Of a stretch of 64,000 nt of DNA, positions 5,751 through 62,888 are shown piece by piece. Position 1 is the first letter of the stretch. Every line of letters starts with the position of its first letter. The position numbers and the translations under genes are program-made. Source of the stretch: an uncultured Gammaproteobacteria bacterium. GTDB lineage: Bacteria; Pseudomonadota; Gammaproteobacteria; Arenicellales; JAANXG01. Location of the stretch: NCBI GenBank assembly GCA_947258975.1, contig CAMYKK010000047.1, forward strand, positions 1-64,000. The letters run 5' to 3'. The notes beneath the pieces were generated by a model. The model searched no databases. It was not told where the DNA came from and saw nothing but the letters and a program-made list of their open reading frames with translations.

Positions 5751-5921
5751 AATGGCACTTACTTAAGCCTTACAGAGGCTAAAAAGTGCTGAATTGAGGG
5801 AGAATTTCCGGGACCGTCGCCAGCAAGGATGCTGGCGCCGAGCCTACATGGAGGTGTTGACGGCGTGTCCCGGGAATTGTCACTCGCTCAGCGTGTCATG
5901 ATCCCTTAAGTCAGTGCCATT
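5751..5921. repeat. R1 MITE-like element, copy a
   Basis: This is a full-length copy, about 171 bp, bounded by AATGGCACTTACTTAAG on the left and an imperfect inverted copy (CTTAAGTCAGTGCCATT) on the right. The core contains AGTGCTGAATTGAGGGAG, the palindrome-rich GCCAGCAAGGATGCTGGCG and TCCCGGGAATTGTCACTCG. It has no coding capacity. Six other copies lie in this window. Confidence 0.85.
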
Positions 5922-5954
5922 CGGGTCTTGACCCGCATATTGAACCAATGCGTA

Positions 5955-16254: not shown

Positions 16255-16408
16255 AATGGCTCTTGCTTAAGCCTTACAGAGGCAAAAAAGTGTTGAATTG
16301 AGGGAGAATTTCCGGGACTGGCGCCGAGCCTACAGGGAGGGATTGACGGCGCGTCCCGGGAATTGTCGCTCGGTTCAGCGTGTCGTGATCCCTTAAGTAA
16401 GTGCCATT
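16255..16408. repeat. R1 MITE-like element, copy b
   Basis: This copy of about 154 bp keeps both inverted ends (AATGGCTCTTGCTTAAG left, CTTAAGTAAGTGCCATT right). It lacks the central 18-bp GTCGCCAGCAAGGATGCTG segment found in copy a. Same orientation as copies a, e and g. Confidence 0.8.
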
Positions 16409-16553
16409 CACCGATACCCCCTTGATTCGCGAAGTGCTTCAGGCGCATCATATCCACGTGCAATAGACCGTGCCATTGTGCCGACAACAATCCGGACGCT
16501 GCAATGGTATGCTGTTGGCACACCACACATCGAGCCACTAATAGAGAAAGACG

Positions 16554-19040: not shown

Positions 19041-19342
19041 TGGAGCACAATGTATGACATAAGTGATCTGTGTTGAATACCGGTTGGGAACGATAAATCC
19101 CTGCTATCCGATCGACACACTTGAACGCCACAGTTTACGTCATAGATCGGGCATAAATAGGGAACGCCGGTTTGACCGCGTATGTGCGGCGCACGAGATA
19201 TTGCGCGGTGATACCGTTCATGAAGCTGGCCGCGGGATCTCCCTGCTCGTGAATCAGGGCTGCCATCGGCATGATCGATCCTCCTTCCAAGTTATTGGCG
19301 GGCGATGGGGGCTAAAGTATAGGAAGAATTGGGGTATGCCCG

Positions 19343-19495
19343 AATGGCACTTACTTAAGGGATCACGACACGCTGAACCGAGTGACAATTCCCGGGACAC
19401 GCCGTCAATACCTCCATGTAGGCTCGGCGCCAGCATCCTTGCTGGCGACGGTCCCGGAAATTCTCCCTCAATTCAGCACTTTTTAGGCTTTAAGT
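19343..19495. repeat. R1 MITE-like element, copy c (reverse orientation)
   Basis: The left end AATGGCACTTACTTAAG is intact, but the right end stops at CTTTAAG and lacks the outer GTAAGTGCCATT. The lost end coincides with the 3' end of the small lipoprotein gene, whose final codons and TAA lie inside the repeat. Confidence 0.8.
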
Positions 19496-30980: not shown

Positions 30981-31009
30981 GCGCACATTTGCAGGAGGGG
31001 GCAGACTCG

Positions 31010-31202
31010 AATGGCACTTACTTAAGGGATCACGACACGCTGAACCGAGTGACCATTCCCGGGACACGCCGTCAATACCTCCCTGTAGGCTCGGCGCCAG
31101 CATCCTTGCTGGCGACGGCAGCATCCTTGCTGGCGACGGTCCCAGAAATTCTCCCTCAATTCAGCACTTGTTAGCCTCAGCAAGGTTTATGTAAGTGCCA
31201 TT
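31010..31202. repeat. R1 MITE-like element, copy d (reverse orientation)
   Basis: This is the longest copy, 193 bp, with both ends (AATGGCACTTACTTAAG and GTAAGTGCCATT). The inner segment GCATCCTTGCTGGCGACG is tandemly duplicated, which accounts for the extra length. GGGTCTGACCCCC follows directly outside the right end. Confidence 0.85.
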
Positions 31203-47574: not shown

Positions 47575-47735
47575 AATGGCATTTACTTAAGCCTTACAGA
47601 GGCAAAAAGGTGCTGAATTGAGGGAGAATTTCCGGAACCGTCGCCAGCAAGGATGCTGGCGCCGAGCCTACAGGGAGGTATTGACGGCGTGTCCCGGGAA
47701 TGGTCACTCGGTTCAGCGTGTCGTGATCCCTTAAG
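47575..47735. repeat. R1 MITE-like element, copy e
   Basis: The left end AATGGCATTTACTTAAG is intact. The right side stops at GATCCCTTAAG and lacks the outer GTAAGTGCCATT. The element sits in the 3' end of the fusion gene on the minus strand and is translated in frame as its last about 50 residues. Confidence 0.85.
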
Positions 47736-50438
47736 GTCTCGAGCCAGACGAAAGCCAACGTTGAAGTTCCGATAGTCGGGCGCGCCCCGGCCGCGGTTCG
47801 CCACGCGCACGTAATTTGGATAATCGTCCCAGGAGCCCCCGCGGCGCATGCGCCGGCTGCAGTTACCGCTGCCGACCCGCAACCACCCTGAAGTTTCAGC
47901 CCGCACACGTTTGTAGTTCGGGCGCCAACAATCCGCCACCCATTCCCAGACATTGCCAATGGTGTCATGCAGGCCAAAACGGTTCGGTTCAAACGAACCG
48001 ACTGGCGCGGTCTGCTTGCCGTCCCATTGGCTGCTACAACCAATACAGTTCGCCCGATTCCTTTCAATGTCGTTTCCCCAGGCGTACTTGTAGTCGCTGC
48101 CGGCGCGCGCCGCGTATTCCCATTCCGCTTCGGTAGGCAGTCGGTAACGCTGGCCGGTCTGCTTCGACAACCAGCCCAGGTAGGCGATCGCATCTCGCCA
48201 AGAAACATTGATCACCGGATTCCGACCCCGACCCCAGCCATTGTCGCCCGGCCGTTTACGCCCCGACGCCTGCGCAAATCGATCATACTCATCGAAGGTG
48301 ACCTCGTAGCGGCCCATCGCAAATGGTTTAGCAAACTTGACCGCGTGCACGGGCTTTTCGTCCTCGTCGCCTCCTCCCTGGAGGCTTCCCATACGGAATG
48401 AGCCGGCGGGAACGATGACCATTTCCGGCCCGTCGCTCCCATCCCCGAGCCGATCCTGGAAGGTGCTGCCTGGTTTTTTCGCGTCCAGCGCCGCGGCACG
48501 CTTCGCCTCTGCAACCGCCCTAAGTGCCGCATCCAGCTCCGCTAGCCGCTTCGTCTCTGCAGTGGCCCTAAGATTCGTGTCCAGATCCGCTTGCGGTTGC
48601 GCTCCCGCAGTGATCCTAAGCTCACCGTTAAGATCCGCTTGGCGTTGGGACTCTGCAGCGACCCTAAGTTCACCATTCAGATCCGCTTGACGTTGCGCCT
48701 GTTGCGCGGCCTCGAGTTCAGCTTCCCGCTTCGCTCGACGCTTTGCCGCTACCGCCGCCTTGAGTTCGGCTTCCACCTCCATACGTCTTGCCTCTGCTTC
48801 AACCACGAGCCGAGCTTGCTCGACTTTGAGTTCAGCGAGGGCCGATCGCTTTGCTTCTGCGTCAGCGAGGAGCCGGGCTTCCTCAGTTTTCTCCGCCGCA
48901 ATCTGGCGCGACTCCTGCAGCTGCTTTGCCATGTGTTCCAACTGGCTGTGTTGATACGCGATGAAACCGCCGCCCAACAGGACGGCCGCAAGTGCCGCTG
49001 CCATACCAATGAATCGCGAAGTCTTGGTAGATGTGGCGGCGGGGACCGTGGGTATCTTGGAGCGGACAGGCACCGGCTTCCTGGCTGGGGCTTGAGGGGC
49101 CAGTTCGGCCTGAACGTTGACTATTATCTCTTCGATTTCTGCTATCTCTGGTGGTCCACGCGGTTCCACTTTGTCGGCAACCGTCCTGAATTCCGCACCG
49201 TCTACATGGCTCGTCAACGGACCCAGAATATGCTCCAACACGATCGGATATTGCCCCGCCCGCAATCCTTTGACGACGCTCAGGGATGTACCGTCACTGG
49301 TGTGCTTTTGCGTAGCAAGATTAACCAGCGGGTAGTCCTGGTAGGGCTTTTTGTGGGCGTCCAGAATCAGCGCGACACGCGGGCGCAGTCTTACGGCCGT
49401 ATTCTGCGCAATCACCACGGCAATTTCCCCGGAACTCAACTCCACCAGCGACCCCGTGGGATGAAGTCCGATCGTGTGGATGAAACGATCAACCAGCGAC
49501 GACTTGAAATGGCGGCCGCGTTGCCTGAACAATGTTTCGATGGCGTCATCCGGGGTCATCGCGACGGCATAGGATTTGGGCTCGGTGGAAGCCTGGTAAG
49601 TGTCCACGATTCCCGCCAGCTGTCCGAACAGCGGAATATTGTCACCCGACAGCCCGGCCAGATAACCACTGCCGTCGTAGCGCTCGTGATGGGTGGCGAC
49701 CATCCACAGCATCTTTTCGTCGGCATCCGATAGTTGCTTGATCAACTGCATTCCCTGCCGAACGTGTGTTTTCATTTTCTCCCATTCATCGTCCGTCAGC
49801 CGCGTCTTTTTATTAAGTAATCCTTCGGGGAGTTTGATATTACCTATGTCAAGGCAGAGTCCGCCGATCGCGAGCAAGTGCAGGTCTTCGTGGCCAAGTC
49901 CCAGCTGTCTGCCAAAGACGGTCAACAATCCGGAAACATTGACGGCATGCCGATAGGTTAATGATGCATAATCTTTGACGCAGCAAAGCCAGATATAGGC
50001 GTCCTGATTGCGCTCGATGCTGTCCACCATCATGCGCACGCGAGGGCTCAGGTCAGCCATGTTCAACGCCTGCCCGCTGTTCACAGCATCCCAAATCTCC
50101 GCAGTCATGTCTGCCATGGCCGCGTGCGCCTTTTCAGCACTCGGTAACTCGTCTTTGAAGGAGGTCCGCGGCTGGTGTGATTTGAGATCGGCCGCACTAA
50201 TAAGATCGTTGATCGAAGACAGCGATATCGGCTTGTTGTGGCGGCTCTGCAGCGTGTATTCCTCGTCCGGAATCATCACATAGGCAAAGCGAGAGCTTTC
50301 TCTGAGCTTCGTTATCTCATCGATGTTCTTGACATAGAACCCCTGGGACAGAAACGGCGTCTCGCGCCAGGGCCTATCCAGCCGCGAGACATACATGCCG
50401 ATCCTAATGTCGGCGGTCGGTATTTTTTTTGCCGTCAT
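47583..50438 (-). CDS. DUF3391 - degenerate HD-GYP - TM - coiled-coil - FGE-sulfatase fusion
   Basis: This protein of about 951 residues begins with a DUF3391-type segment (TADIRIGMYVSRLDRPW). An HD-GYP domain follows at about 140-340, with YRHAVNVSGL and THHERYDGSGYL. Its HD motif reads LCLDIGN, so the metal-binding His is replaced, and catalysis may be lost. Then come a hydrophobic helix (IGMAAALAAVLLGGGFIAY), a long coiled coil with 16-residue repeats, and an FGE-sulfatase (SUMF1-like) domain (MVIVPAGSFRMGS...LPTEAEWEYAARAG...GNVWEWVAD...GFRLARD). The FGE domain is probably periplasmic or outside the c-di-GMP-sensing cytosol. The last about 50 residues derive from R1 copy e. ATG 50438 is preferred over TTG 50447. 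Confidence 0.87.
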   Translation of the reverse strand: MTAKKIPTADIRIGMYVSRLDRPWRETPFLSQGFYVKNIDEITKLRESSRFAYVMIPDEEYTLQSRHNKPISLSSINDLISAADLKSHQPRTSFKDELPSAEKAHAAMADMTAEIWDAVNSGQALNMADLSPRVRMMVDSIERNQDAYIWLCCVKDYASLTYRHAVNVSGLLTVFGRQLGLGHEDLHLLAIGGLCLDIGNIKLPEGLLNKKTRLTDDEWEKMKTHVRQGMQLIKQLSDADEKMLWMVATHHERYDGSGYLAGLSGDNIPLFGQLAGIVDTYQASTEPKSYAVAMTPDDAIETLFRQRGRHFKSSLVDRFIHTIGLHPTGSLVELSSGEIAVVIAQNTAVRLRPRVALILDAHKKPYQDYPLVNLATQKHTSDGTSLSVVKGLRAGQYPIVLEHILGPLTSHVDGAEFRTVADKVEPRGPPEIAEIEEIIVNVQAELAPQAPARKPVPVRSKIPTVPAATSTKTSRFIGMAAALAAVLLGGGFIAYQHSQLEHMAKQLQESRQIAAEKTEEARLLADAEAKRSALAELKVEQARLVVEAEARRMEVEAELKAAVAAKRRAKREAELEAAQQAQRQADLNGELRVAAESQRQADLNGELRITAGAQPQADLDTNLRATAETKRLAELDAALRAVAEAKRAAALDAKKPGSTFQDRLGDGSDGPEMVIVPAGSFRMGSLQGGGDEDEKPVHAVKFAKPFAMGRYEVTFDEYDRFAQASGRKRPGDNGWGRGRNPVINVSWRDAIAYLGWLSKQTGQRYRLPTEAEWEYAARAGSDYKYAWGNDIERNRANCIGCSSQWDGKQTAPVGSFEPNRFGLHDTIGNVWEWVADCWRPNYKRVRAETSGWLRVGSGNCSRRMRRGGSWDDYPNYVRVANRGRGAPDYRNFNVGFRLARDLKGSRHAEPSDHSRDTPSIPPCRLGASILAGDGSGNSPSIQHLFASVRLK
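48485..48715. repeat. 48-bp tandem repeat in the coiled-coil region
   Basis: About five 48-bp units begin at roughly 48487, 48535, 48583, 48631 and 48679, each with an AGATCCGCTT-like core. They encode 16-residue helical repeats of the type QRQADLNGELRVAAES. The middle units are most alike, so the array has probably expanded recently. Confidence 0.7.
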
Positions 50439-50550
50439 GCCGTCCAAATATGCTATTCCCCATAATATACATAGACTTAATCAGCTGAAGTTTCCAATCG
50501 GATATATCGTCAAATTGACATAAATAGGCAGTAATCAGGGGACAGCCCCG

Positions 50551-50722
50551 AATGGCACACTCTTCAGGGGTCACGACACGCTGAACCGCGTGACAATGCC
50601 CGGGACACGCCGTCAATACCTCCCTTGAGGCTCGGCGCCCGCATCCTTGCTGGCGACGGTTCCGGAAATTCTCCCTCAATTCAGCACTTTTTAGCCTCTG
50701 TAAGGCTCAAGTAAGTGCCATT
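50551..50722. repeat. R1 MITE-like element, copy f (reverse orientation)
   Basis: A full-length copy of 172 bp, with a degraded left end (AATGGCACACTCTTCAG) and an intact right end (CTCAAGTAAGTGCCATT). GGGTCTGACCCCC follows outside the right end, as in copy d. Confidence 0.83.
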
Positions 50723-52437: not shown

Positions 52438-52462
52438 ATAACGGGCACAGGTCTGGCATCCA

Positions 52463-52591
52463 TTGAGGGAGAATTTCCGGGACCGTTCGCCAGCAAGGAT
52501 GCTGGCGCCGAGCCTACATGGAGGGTTTGACGGCGTGTCCCGGGAATGGTCACTCGGTTCAGCGTGTCGTGATCCCTGAAGTAAGTGCCAC
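52463..52591. repeat. R1 MITE-like element, copy g (left-truncated)
   Basis: This copy of 129 bp starts inside the element at TTGAGGGAGAATTTCCGG and keeps the right end GAAGTAAGTGCCA. The left inverted end is missing. It lies 25 bp after the stop of the hypothetical gene. Confidence 0.8.
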
Positions 52592-52681
52592 TCATACCTG
52601 AACACCTTCTTTGCCGTGATCCATCACATGCCAATGCGACGCGACGTTGGCAGACCCCGCGGATTGCGATCCCTCTTTGCG

Positions 52682-53334: not shown

Positions 53335-54057
53335 TCAGCTATCCTTACTCCACTGGTCGAATTCAATGGGAAGCAGGCTGAGTATGTCGGCGCCGGACAT
53401 GCCGTAGATGTCGTAGTTCACATCGAGTTGCTGCAACACGCGGACGAAGCGCCGGATCGAACCGCCGCTGGCCGTCGAGACTTGTGAACCGGGTTTCGGC
53501 GCTAGTCTGTCGCGGGCTAGGTAAAGCATCGCAGCCGCCTCGACAACGCCCCGGTTCGCAATCAAGTCCTGCCGTCCCGCAATTTCGTGGTAGACCCTGC
53601 TTGCTATGTGCGCGGGCCCCAATAAGAGCAGGATCGCTTCGTTGCCGTGCCGCCGATACACTTGATAGGGGCCGTATAACAAATGTCGGTGCCAATTCCG
53701 ATAACCGAAGTCGGGAATGTGGCGATGGTCTTGTCCCGGGCGTCGCGCTCCGTCGGGTCCCGCCGGGCACACCTGATTGAACAGGAACAGCGATAACCAC
53801 GCCCACAACCCTTTGTTTCGATCCGTTTCCTCTGCGCGCAGCGGCGCGAGGATCTCGCACAGGTATTCTCCCAGCGCCAATCGATGCGAAAAATCCCGCC
53901 GTTCAATCAGCACATCGACCGGCAACTCAGCGGTGTGACCAGGATCTGCCAGAAGCTCCGTGGGGGGCTCGCTTCGCGTCTTGTCCCGCAGCCCGGCCAG
54001 ATAGTCCCGGAATCGCTCGATCCCCGTATTATTGAACGCGCGCACCAATTCCGCCAT
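53335..54057 (-). CDS. DUF6339-like protein, third gene of the GHKL cassette
   Basis: This 240-residue protein begins MAELVRAFNNTGIERFRDYL. It has a conserved core: LWAWLSLFLFNQVCP, YRNWHRHLLYGPYQVYRRHG and RRFVRVLQQLDVNYDIYGMSGADILSLLPIEFDQW. This looks like DUF6339, but that name is recalled, not checked. No catalytic motif is obvious. The start at 54057 overlaps the stop of the preceding gene (ATGA). Frames upstream of it are inside that gene. It is presumed to work with the GHKL ATPase and the middle protein. Confidence 0.75.
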   Translation of the reverse strand: MAELVRAFNNTGIERFRDYLAGLRDKTRSEPPTELLADPGHTAELPVDVLIERRDFSHRLALGEYLCEILAPLRAEETDRNKGLWAWLSLFLFNQVCPAGPDGARRPGQDHRHIPDFGYRNWHRHLLYGPYQVYRRHGNEAILLLLGPAHIASRVYHEIAGRQDLIANRGVVEAAAMLYLARDRLAPKPGSQVSTASGGSIRRFVRVLQQLDVNYDIYGMSGADILSLLPIEFDQWSKDS

Positions 54058-54833
54058 CAACTTGCCTCCCTGCGCAGCGCCGTTGCAAACCGCTGCCGCG
54101 CGCGCCGCGAACGACAAAAAGCCTGCACTGTCTCGTCTATCCATTCGCGGCGCCGCGCCTGGGCCGCGTCGCCCACACCACCCGGGGGCTCGGGCACGCC
54201 AGGCAGCGCGCACACGAACCGCAGCCACAGGCTGGTCCATTCGCTGTCATCCAATCCCGGGTCGGTCTCACCGAGAACGATCACAATCTCGTGCAGAATG
54301 CGGCGCAGTATCTCGGGATAGACCAAGGCCAGAAACGAATCACCCGTACGGGCGGCCTCGCCGACGGCACCGAGGCGATTGTTCAGCTCCAGTACCGGCC
54401 AGTCGCTCACGTCCAGGCGCCAGACACGATCACTCAGATCGCAGAAATCGACCGGCAACAGCGACTGCTTATTGGCCAGGTCCTCGTGTGGCCGCAGCGG
54501 TATGAGCTTGTCCGCCACGCCGAGCAACAGGCCATGGCGCTTGGATTGATCGACGACTTTTAAGCGGAATTTCGGTAGCGGACGCGAGGTGACCTCCGTC
54601 AAGCGCAGGTCCTGCGGATCGCGCCGATTGCCGATGGTGCCGAACGCGAATCGCATGTAGGACGCGGAATTGTAGGCCTCAATAAAAATGCTGGCATCCC
54701 TCGGGAAGCGCAGCGGCGCGAGATTAAAGTCGGCTTCGAATGCGTAACCCACATCATCTGCGGGCAGCAGCCTGATCGTCACCGCGGATCGCGGAATCTT
54801 CTTACGGCCGGTATAGTTGAGGCGCCGGATCAT
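54057..54833 (-). CDS. Unknown protein, middle gene of the GHKL cassette
   Basis: This 258-residue protein is not recognised. The N-terminal half looks like a beta-rich domain (YTGRKKIPRSAVTIRLLP, PRDASIFIEAYNSASYMRFAFG, PKFRLKVVDQSKRHGLLLGVADKLIP). The C-terminal half is helical (EILRRILHEIVIVL, SLWLRFVCALPG, RREWIDETVQAFC). Both of its boundaries are ATGA overlaps with the flanking genes, so it belongs to one operon with them. Conserved enzyme motifs are absent, which suggests an adaptor or binding subunit. Confidence 0.75.
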   Translation of the reverse strand: MIRRLNYTGRKKIPRSAVTIRLLPADDVGYAFEADFNLAPLRFPRDASIFIEAYNSASYMRFAFGTIGNRRDPQDLRLTEVTSRPLPKFRLKVVDQSKRHGLLLGVADKLIPLRPHEDLANKQSLLPVDFCDLSDRVWRLDVSDWPVLELNNRLGAVGEAARTGDSFLALVYPEILRRILHEIVIVLGETDPGLDDSEWTSLWLRFVCALPGVPEPPGGVGDAAQARRREWIDETVQAFCRSRRARQRFATALRREAS

Positions 54834-56737
54834 GTCGCAGAGGCCTCGATCCGCACACGTATATCCCGGCGGACATCGAAGCCCTTAACCGTCACCCGAA
54901 AGTGCGGGTCCTGAATCTCGAGCACCAAAAGATTGCGCCCGCGCCTGGCGATTTCTGCGTGTTCGATGTGCATAACGATGGGCGGTTTGTCCAACTCAAA
55001 GTCCGGCGGCTGATATTGGCTGAAGGGGTTGCCGCGCCGCACTTCGTAAGCCACCCACACCGCCGCTGTGCGCGGCATCGCCTTACCATCGCCGTTGCCG
55101 GTGAGGCGAAAACCGCCATGCAGTTTTTGCAGCTGAAAAAAGCGATCCCTGCCCACCGTGTCCACGCCCCCCGTCCCGCCGGTTTCCTCCGTTCCCGGCT
55201 TATCCTCCCGGCCTTTTCTCGGGTCCTTCACCTTATCCTCGGTAGGAATGTCCAAGGCGAAAACGTGTCGCAACAAATCAAAGTCCCGATCCCCTGTCGG
55301 CCGTATCATGGCGCGCACGATCTCGCGCGGCGCGTTCTTAACGTAGCGCAAGGTGAAAGGCCCGTGGCGATAGCGATCCTTGAATTTGGGGGAACGTTCC
55401 TGCCACTCGGTGTGCGCTGGATTCTCCGAGTCTCCCAATAACTCCGACAGCGGCTGATCGCGGACCAAAACCAGCACCCGAACGCCTTTTTGCATGGCGG
55501 CCCTGACGCCGGCTATGGTGATGCCGTCGCGGACGAAATGCTCCTCCGCGCTGCCGAGGGTATCGTCGCGCTCCAGGTACACATCGAACTGCGAAGGAAC
55601 GGGGTCTCCCGCGGCCGGTTTCACCCACACCGGTACGTTGACGGCGATGGGCTGACCGGCATTGAAACGGCCGCGCAGCGACACTAAATTGTCATCACCG
55701 ATATACTCGTCGTTCCATCGCGGCGCCTTGGTTGCCGGTGGCGCCTGCAGACGCGCGTATTCCTCACGCGGCAGGTGCACCCCCCACCGCGCCAGTTCCA
55801 ATAACCGACCCAATCGGGGCGCGTCATCCCAGGCACCTTGGGAGAGGTATCTATCCAGCGTTTGCGCATCCAACAGCTGTGATTTGCCATCGTGGACCAC
55901 TTCCGCCGCAATATCGCCGGAAATAATGGGAATGAAGTAGTGCCGGATGATGGAGTCCACGACCGCCTGAGGCGTGAGCTCGGCGACTGGAAACGGCACG
56001 ATGACCGACAGGCCGGGCTCGTCCCGCCGCGAGATCACAAAATCGCGCCCAAAACCATCCACCGGCGCGGCATCCTCGACGGGCAGTGCAAACCCGTTGG
56101 TGAAGCGCGCGAAATATCCATAGGGATAAAAACGTTGGTCTTGGACCTTGTGGATCTTCAGCACCGCCTGACCCATCAGCACCCTGCGCCGGTCATCCGC
56201 CCGGATCGACAACCCGAAAAAAGCATTGATCCGAGACGCCGCCGGAAACACGGTTTTCCCGAGGCCCCAGCGACCCAGTTCGGCCGCGTGTTTGCGGGAG
56301 CGACCGATATTGCGCCAGAAATAATAAAAGTCGTTTCTCGCCGCGGCGGCGTCGAGTTCCACGTCTTCGCTTTGAGACGGATCACCCTGCAGTCCACGCG
56401 TGCCAAAGTCCTCGATGACGACGTAGTTCAACGGCTCGTTTGCAGACGGCAAATTGGCGAGCCCGCTGCGGTTCGCGTACAGATGTGCCAACAGCCCTAA
56501 TAGGTAGGGTCTCTTGCGCTCGCCTTTCAGAACCTTATCCGGTTGCGGAAACGAGACGCGGATCTTGAGCTGTTCACCGGGAAGCCGGGCGTCGAGGGAG
56601 TTTTGAATCGCCTCGCGCACCAGTGCGTCAGCCAGGCTGCCAAGTGCCTCGGTGGAGAAGAACTCGGCCTCGATCGGATCGATGTTCATCTCTCCGGGCT
56701 GCATCTGCCGAAATTTCCAGGTGGGAGAATCAGTCAT
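54830..56737 (-). CDS. GHKL-type ATPase, first gene of an uncharacterised three-gene cassette
   Basis: This 635-residue protein carries the GHKL (Hsp90/MutL/gyrase-B) ATP-binding fold in its N-terminal quarter: N-box REAIQNSLDA (residues 41-50), YVVIEDFGTRGLQG with the Asp at 110 (motif II), and GRWGLGKTVFPAAS (about 155-168, motif III). The rest has IRHYFIPIISGDIAAEVV and a beta-rich C-terminal part, consistent with a DNA-machinery-type or defence ATPase. ATG 56737 was chosen over 56890. The frame beyond it enters an R3 repeat. It is the first of three genes linked by ATGA overlaps. Confidence 0.85.
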   Translation of the reverse strand: MTDSPTWKFRQMQPGEMNIDPIEAEFFSTEALGSLADALVREAIQNSLDARLPGEQLKIRVSFPQPDKVLKGERKRPYLLGLLAHLYANRSGLANLPSANEPLNYVVIEDFGTRGLQGDPSQSEDVELDAAAARNDFYYFWRNIGRSRKHAAELGRWGLGKTVFPAASRINAFFGLSIRADDRRRVLMGQAVLKIHKVQDQRFYPYGYFARFTNGFALPVEDAAPVDGFGRDFVISRRDEPGLSVIVPFPVAELTPQAVVDSIIRHYFIPIISGDIAAEVVHDGKSQLLDAQTLDRYLSQGAWDDAPRLGRLLELARWGVHLPREEYARLQAPPATKAPRWNDEYIGDDNLVSLRGRFNAGQPIAVNVPVWVKPAAGDPVPSQFDVYLERDDTLGSAEEHFVRDGITIAGVRAAMQKGVRVLVLVRDQPLSELLGDSENPAHTEWQERSPKFKDRYRHGPFTLRYVKNAPREIVRAMIRPTGDRDFDLLRHVFALDIPTEDKVKDPRKGREDKPGTEETGGTGGVDTVGRDRFFQLQKLHGGFRLTGNGDGKAMPRTAAVWVAYEVRRGNPFSQYQPPDFELDKPPIVMHIEHAEIARRGRNLLVLEIQDPHFRVTVKGFDVRRDIRVRIEASAT

Positions 56738-61594: not shown

Positions 61595-61949
61595 ATGACG
61601 CTCGATCTCACAGGCCGCAACTTTCTTACAACTACAAAAGGTGTTGATTTTCTTTATGCTGATATCTGGGCCTCCATGGGAAAGACGGATCAAACTTCTC
61701 AGGGCCTGTCAGGTGAACACGCAGGTTTTACTGCGTGCGGGTAATCCGGACGTCAAGTTCATGCATTGCCTTCCCGCGTTTCACCATCGCGAAACAACAA
61801 TCGGTGAAGAGAGTTTCCGAAAATTCGGTGTCGAAGCCATGGAGGTGTCCCAGGAGGTGTTTGCATCCGCGGCGTCGATCGTCTTCGATCAGGCCGAGAA
61901 TCGCATGCACACCATCAAAGCGGTCATGGTCGCGACGCTCGGAGCTTAG
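61595..61949 (+). pseudogene. arcB: Internally deleted, frameshifted ornithine carbamoyltransferase
   Basis: ATG 61595 opens [13 protein letters not shown], the normal N-terminus of ornithine carbamoyltransferase. It is followed directly by [14 protein letters not shown], which belongs near residue 230. A frameshift then leads to [18 protein letters not shown] and the complete C-terminus, with [10 protein letters not shown] (catalytic Cys-Leu-Pro) and [20 protein letters not shown]. About 200 residues, including the carbamoyl-phosphate site STRTR, are missing. The gene is dead as an enzyme. Its stop lies 3 nt upstream of arcC, as in normal arginine deiminase operons. Confidence 0.85.
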
Positions 61950-61952
61950 TCG

Positions 61953-62888
61953 ATGCGTGTTGTCATCGCGCTAGGGGGAAATGCACTGCTTCGCCGCGGA
62001 CAAGCGCTGACTGTCGAGAACCAACGCGACAACGTGAAAATTGCCGCCCAGGCCCTGGCGCCGATCGCTTGCGATCATAACCTCGTCATTTCGCATGGAA
62101 ACGGCCCCCAGGTCGGACTGCTTGCCCTGCAGAGTGCGGCGTATCAACCCGAAGACGCATTTCCACTGGATATACTGGACGCAGAGACCGAGGGCATGAT
62201 CGGCTACCTCATCGAGCAGGAGCTTGTTAATCGGTTGCCGGAACAACGCCGCTGTGCAACCTTGCTAACGCAGATCGAGGTGGATGCCGACGATCCGGCT
62301 TTCAAACATCCGACCAAGCCCATCGGCCCGGTTTACGATGAAGGTGAAGCACGCAAACTTGCGCGGGAGAGGGGATGGCGTATCGCTCCCGACGGCGCGT
62401 ACTATCGTCGTGTCGTACCCGCACCGAAACCAAGGCGGATCCTGGAACTGAGCGTGATCGAACTCCTGCTGAATCAGGATGTCGTCGTGATCTGTGCCGG
62501 GGGCGGCGGTATACCCATCGTTTGCCGGCAAGACGGCAGCCTGATCGGTGTTGAGGCAGTGATCGATAAGGACCTTGCCAGCTCACTACTGGCACGGGAG
62601 TTGAATGCGGAAGCCTTGCTGATGCTGACTGATGTCGACGCCGTGTATCAGTATTGGGATACCCCCAAGGCGCGTCCTATCAGGCATCTTTCCCCACAGC
62701 AGGCGGCACGATGTTCTTTTGCGCCCGGGTCCATGGGCCCGAAGGTGGAGGCCGCCGTCGAATTCGTCGCACACAGCGGTGGTACGGCCGGTATCGGCGC
62801 CCTCAGCGATGCGTATTCAATCCTGCGCGGTGAAGCAGGTACGATAGTCAGCCGGACGCGTGCGGACGAGTCATTGCGAATAAAATGA
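61953..62888 (+). CDS. arcC: Carbamate kinase
   Basis: This 311-residue protein matches carbamate kinase, which makes ATP from carbamoyl phosphate and ADP or runs in the biosynthetic direction. It begins MRVVIALGGNALLRRGQALT and has ISHGNGPQVGLLALQ, LDAETEGMIGYLIEQEL, VICAGGGGIPIV and the KVEAAVEFVAHSGG end. It is full length. Its partner gene arcB upstream is a pseudogene in this window, so a source of carbamoyl phosphate would have to be elsewhere. Confidence 0.94.
   Translation: MRVVIALGGNALLRRGQALTVENQRDNVKIAAQALAPIACDHNLVISHGNGPQVGLLALQSAAYQPEDAFPLDILDAETEGMIGYLIEQELVNRLPEQRRCATLLTQIEVDADDPAFKHPTKPIGPVYDEGEARKLARERGWRIAPDGAYYRRVVPAPKPRRILELSVIELLLNQDVVVICAGGGGIPIVCRQDGSLIGVEAVIDKDLASSLLARELNAEALLMLTDVDAVYQYWDTPKARPIRHLSPQQAARCSFAPGSMGPKVEAAVEFVAHSGGTAGIGALSDAYSILRGEAGTIVSRTRADESLRIK

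Follow-up and report, generated by a model that had tools for sequence, protein, structure and literature searches.

A candidate paraMORC2-type three-gene cassette from a cross-phylum clade without linked C5-methylase genes

Three tightly spaced genes encode a GHKL-type ATPase and two partner proteins

We analyzed a 64,000-nucleotide stretch of DNA from an uncultured gammaproteobacterium (hereafter, the window; contig CAMYKK010000047.1), in which the minus strand of positions 53335-56737 carries three consecutive same-strand ORFs in the order A-B-C. Gene A (54830..56737) encodes a GHKL-type ATPase of 635 amino acids, gene B (54057..54833) a protein of 258 amino acids and gene C (53335..54057) a protein of 240 amino acids. 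The three ORFs and their sizes agree with a preliminary description of this DNA, which had also proposed two 4-nt ATGA overlaps; this was correct for A and B, which overlap by 4 nt at the stop/start sequence ATGA (54830..54833), but not for B and C, which have a single nucleotide in common (54057) within the stop/start sequence TGATG (54055..54059). Among homologous loci, 30 of 66 have an A-B spacing of -4, and 42 of 62 have a B-C spacing of -4 or -1, a tightness that is conserved beyond chance. The base composition of A, B and C resembles that of the neighbouring genes, and comparison with three relatives in the genus and one betaproteobacterium gave dN/dS values of 0.10-0.21 for all of them; they are real genes under purifying selection.

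The GHKL ATP-binding motifs of A (the N-box, ED..G and GRWGLGK) sit at the N-terminus, as in paraMORC2 proteins, and are invariant over 59 homologues (R41-E42..Q45-N46..D49; E109-D110..T113.G115; G155..G158.G160-K161), so that the clear GHKL ATP site noted earlier is borne out. The homologue alignment also contains an invariant ExxxH motif (E438-N-P-A-H442), and the form ENPxH is present in several PDC-M33A proteins as well. Such an ExxxH motif is described for the paraMORC2 ATPases of restriction-modification (RM) systems (Iyer, Abhiman and Aravind, 2008; PMC2292703), and on the motifs given there A can be read as a putative paraMORC2-like ATPase. The PADLOC model PDC-M33A recognizes A (E = 8.2e-12) and all 59 of the homologues scanned. 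Searches of Pfam and NCBIfam gave no match to A, the 58 aligned relatives matched no Pfam family, including the MutL and HATPase models, and a PDB sequence search with the A profile returned chance matches only. A is not a known housekeeping family; the preliminary description had considered that it might turn out to be one, and no such family was matched.

Genes B and C appear distantly related to the PDC-M33 partner genes

Neither B nor C produced a significant match in Pfam, NCBIfam or PADLOC, with Pfam and PADLOC searched to E<=1. Within this threshold, the PDC-M33B model recognized neither the B protein of the window nor any of five diverse homologues, and C of the window was recognized neither by the PDC-M33C model (PADLOC) nor by DUF6339 (Pfam). 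PDB sequence searches with the B and C profiles returned chance matches only, and nothing in the cassette was recognized as a motif of a nuclease or another effector. The predicted structure of C (pLDDT 94.7) is compact and mostly alpha-helical, and had no PDB match by Foldseek or VIA-align. That of B (pLDDT 92.1) comprises a beta-sandwich at about residues 10-150 followed by a helical domain, and structure comparison, which was directed almost wholly at the sandwich, retrieved only generic Fn3/C2/GH2-type beta-sandwiches (Z about 8 at best, about 100 residues). This similarity is too general to name a function for B, and we rejected such an assignment.

Profile-profile comparison reached further. 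Two genomes (G064 and G022) encode strong PDC-M33A proteins followed by PDC-M33B and PDC-M33C, and the PDC-M33C protein of G064 corresponds to Pfam DUF6339 (2e-32). With PDC-M33 profiles built from 13 such loci, each hhalign pairing being a single comparison, A aligned with PDC-M33A at 4e-40, C with PDC-M33C at 5e-8 over 212 columns, its full length, and B with PDC-M33B at 2.6e-4, a weak match over about 100 columns; all mismatched pairings scored 0.03 or worse. A smaller first profile set had left the link of B and C to PDC-M33 too weak, and that of C became clear only with the 13 loci. By these alignments, C is a distant relative of PDC-M33C over its full length, and B is weakly linked to PDC-M33B. 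The earlier label of C as DUF6339-like thus holds by profile alignment, although not by Pfam search.

The cassette is conserved as a unit and changes its genomic position

A scan of species genomes identified 79 loci encoding relatives of A, 62 of which also carry B and C downstream. An independent search of 145 related genomes with profiles of the three proteins placed B and C in an identical set of eight genomes, always beside A; the triplet co-occurrence on which the preliminary description had made its reading depend is thus found. These results support A-B-C as an obligate, conserved unit. Copies of A without B and C were confined to a planctomycete branch, distant relatives and a few cut or single loci. 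The planctomycete branch (L043, L046, L047, L050, L052, L054, L055 and L056), in which the ATPase gene is divergent from an adjoining sugar-isomerase-like gene in seven of eight loci, perhaps has a different function.

The trio is present in four of the six genomes of the genus of the window. DNA similarity between the window and its genus relatives ends within ~12 bp of the trio on both sides, with different flanks beyond, and the genes that flank it in the window, an RND efflux operon and an Lrp-like regulator, are found without an adjacent cassette in three genomes (G001, G004 and G005); for these reasons, we conclude that the trio relocates as a unit. No exact direct or inverted repeats of at least 9 bases flank the cassette, that is, it has no transposon-like ends. 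Plasmids and two viral contigs also carry homologues.

The repeat clusters beside which the cassette had been said to stand are probably a dispersed repeat of ~131 bp. A copy is present at 52462-52593, but the repeat is spread over the genome in more than 30 copies (82-95% identity) and thus has no specific tie to the cassette; six further copies are found in the window (5793-5922, 16318-16410, 19342-19472, 31009-31160, 47617-47735 and 50550-50680), and the other five genomes of the genus all contain diverged copies.

Two other ORFs of the window deserve mention. A 954-residue ORF on the minus strand (47583-50447) appears, as read from its sequence, to contain an HD-GYP-like region and a C-terminal domain like that of formylglycine-generating enzyme (SUMF1); a homologue of this ORF is located directly downstream of the trio in locus L001. 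On the plus strand, a short ORF (61641-61949) that resembles a C-terminal fragment of ornithine carbamoyltransferase, possibly a gene remnant, directly precedes a carbamate-kinase-like gene (61953-62888).

Relatives of the trio adjoin different modification and restriction genes

Outside the clade of the window (described below and termed stand-alone), a C5-cytosine methylase gene is located near 21 of 30 A-B-C loci, most of which also have Vsr and some an EcoRII-C endonuclease. Among PDC-M33 loci on plasmids, which are mostly of Gram-positive origin with one cyanobacterium among them, some adjoin dcm, vsr and AlwI-, MutH/Sau3AI- or other type II endonucleases, and others N6-methylases, AIPR, AbiG or Shedu genes. 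In addition, a PAPS-reductase-like gene lies beside a PDC-M33A-like ATPase in four related loci (L101:3064-9951, L103:6961-11927, L106:1-2391 and L107:7474-12091), one of which (L101) also has a DndB-like gene; these neighbours suggest that a sulfur-modification system may act as partner of the GHKL cassette. Since relatives adjoin C5-methylase, N6-methylase or PAPS-reductase modules in turn, it is the trio that stays constant, and its modification and restriction neighbours are swapped from one relative to another.

Individual loci show further arrangements. On a Synechococcus plasmid (L164:3218-5820), there is a 4-nt overlap between the DUF6339 and C5-methylase genes, and trio and methylase thus form one operon at this locus. 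Two Bacteroidota loci (L031:4652-7986 and L037:3885-7957) have extra genes between methylase and ATPase, either a second GHKL protein (HATPase_c_3 + HATPase_c, HEF_HK-like), which adjoins the trio in L031, or a KaiC/DnaB-like ATPase with two unknown proteins.

A cross-phylum clade has no linked C5-methylase

The tree of A places the window in a 27-row clade (support 95) with no linked C5-methylase, which spans Pseudomonadota, Thermodesulfobacteriota, Myxococcota, Nitrospirota, Nitrospinota, Bdellovibrionota and Planctomycetota. A C5-methylase is linked in none of the 32 loci assigned to this stand-alone clade. When only loci with adequate flanks were counted, the figures were 0/10 for the clade vs 15/18 outside it (Fisher p=2e-5, a test that ignores shared ancestry), and the stand-alone state may go back to a single loss event. 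The absence extends beyond the locus: the genome of the window (96% complete), when searched for these two genes, was found to encode no C5-methylase and no Vsr, and 20 of the 27 clade genomes, whose completeness is unstated, encode no C5-methylase. This branch has therefore kept the trio without C5-methylase modification; in the genome of the window, a modification partner of another class, such as an N6/N4 methylase or a sulfur-modification system, may act in trans. Of the 142 neighbouring proteins in the stand-alone clade, only a few are defence matches (Cas3, type III methylases and SoFic) and most are ordinary, which counts against a ready assignment to defence; most stand-alone copies lie outside obvious defence islands.

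Proposed function and alternative explanations

We propose, with a probability of about 55%, that the cassette of the window is a stand-alone descendant of an RM-associated cassette of the paraMORC2 type and that it probably serves in DNA surveillance or defence. It would belong to a large and mobile family of A-B-C cassettes with distant kinship to PDC-M33 and to the paraMORC2 ATPases. The mechanism that we infer would start with A, whose N-terminal GHKL domains would pair when ATP is bound, so that the protein could work on DNA as a clamp or remodelling motor, with translational coupling ensuring that B and C are made in a fixed ratio. B and C most likely join A in one complex, to which they would contribute recognition and effector functions, and either of them might be the effector. 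In most relatives, the trio would supplement an RM or DNA-modification module, and the modification would mark self. In the clade of the window, where the linked modification partner is gone, the trio would find its target itself or via some other cue, such as DNA that is foreign or damaged, or the interference of a phage with the DNA of its host; after recognition, it could block or cleave the DNA or arrest the cell. We give a lower, though not small, probability to a stronger version, in which the three proteins form a GHKL-based anti-phage machine that is sufficient by itself. This machine would have lost the self-mark that DNA modification provides in RM-linked relatives and would recognize its target directly, and C, whose predicted helical fold has no PDB match, would be a new type of effector or sensor.

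The commonest neighbours outside the stand-alone clade, C5-methylase and Vsr, could also point to a MutL-like repair adjunct, which would help Vsr or other nucleases to process modification-derived mismatches or lesions (as from 5mC deamination) and would serve as a general repair module in the stand-alone clade; according to the paraMORC2 paper (PMC2292703), GHKL ATPases such as MutL do cooperate with Vsr and MutH. We consider this unlikely, since the genome of the window has neither a 5mC methylase nor Vsr, PDC-M33 relatives are also found beside N6-methylases or PAPS-reductase genes, where repair of 5mC would make no sense, and a repair gene would not be expected to be as patchily distributed (8 of 145 genomes). 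The sporadic presence within the genus (4/6) and within the taxonomic order, with differing flanks, and the homologues on plasmids and viral contigs argue likewise against a housekeeping or metabolic chaperone role unrelated to foreign DNA, which we judge rather improbable despite the unremarkable genes that surround the trio here and at most stand-alone loci and despite the planctomycete branch that has A and neither B nor C.

A further explanation is that the ATPase complex controls RM, limiting or licensing the resident restriction enzyme with no DNA attack of its own, which is favoured by the variety of neighbouring restriction enzymes (AlwI, EcoRII-C, MutH/Sau3AI) around a constant trio; that a cross-phylum clade keeps the trio, under purifying selection where measured, without a linked C5-methylase RM system makes this the least probable of the alternatives in our judgement. 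The closest described systems are candidate defence or RM-associated cassettes, and the defence role proposed in the preliminary description gains indirect support.

Comparison with known systems

The closest counterpart is PDC-M33, a computationally defined PADLOC phage defence candidate, which has the same A-B-C gene order on one strand and similar protein sizes, and whose A model recognizes A of the window. It differs in that B and C of the window family fall short of the PDC-M33B and PDC-M33C models and of DUF6339, and in that the clade of the window is a separate deep branch of the A tree with no linked C5-methylase. Cassettes of the PDC-M33/paraMORC2 kind were already known, by computation only; PDC-M33 and DUF6339 were not named in any paper that our literature search found, and the search on paraMORC found nothing experimental on the trio. 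What is new here is the methylase-free cross-phylum clade, together with two partner families that are invisible to Pfam, NCBIfam and PADLOC.

The MZA system (MutL + Z1 + DUF + AIPR), to which the cassette had been compared in the preliminary description, is alike in having a GHKL ATPase with unknown partners, but the comparison did not hold up: Z1 and AIPR partners were not found with Pfam or PADLOC, and since B and C have no match in either, they are neither Z1 nor AIPR, and an assignment to MZA was rejected. One distant relative, on an Enterococcus plasmid, adjoins an AIPR gene.

With paraMORC2 (PMC2292703), A has in common the order of N-terminal GHKL motifs followed by ExxxH, and the association with C5-methylase and Vsr is matched in relatives of the window but not in the window itself. 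The methylase, Vsr or helicase neighbourhood that goes with paraMORC2 is not seen for the window, whose own genome lacks C5-methylase and Vsr. The text on which this comparison is based describes neither a B/C partner pair nor a methylase-free clade. Similarly, the paraMORC-like HEF_HK / Response_reg_2 elements (Bellieny-Rabelo, 2021; PMC8011034) have GHKL ATPases beside C5-methylase and Vsr, as do relatives of the window, and differ in that A of the window has no Pfam HATPase match and in having other partners.

Taken as a family, these cassettes amount to a natural experiment, in which a similar trio occurs with 5mC, N6-methyl or PAPS-reductase modules, or without a modification partner. The stand-alone form could reveal whether a GHKL trio attacks DNA unaided and how it tells self from foreign, which bears on how MORC-like ATPases, used by eukaryotes on chromatin, work in bacteria.
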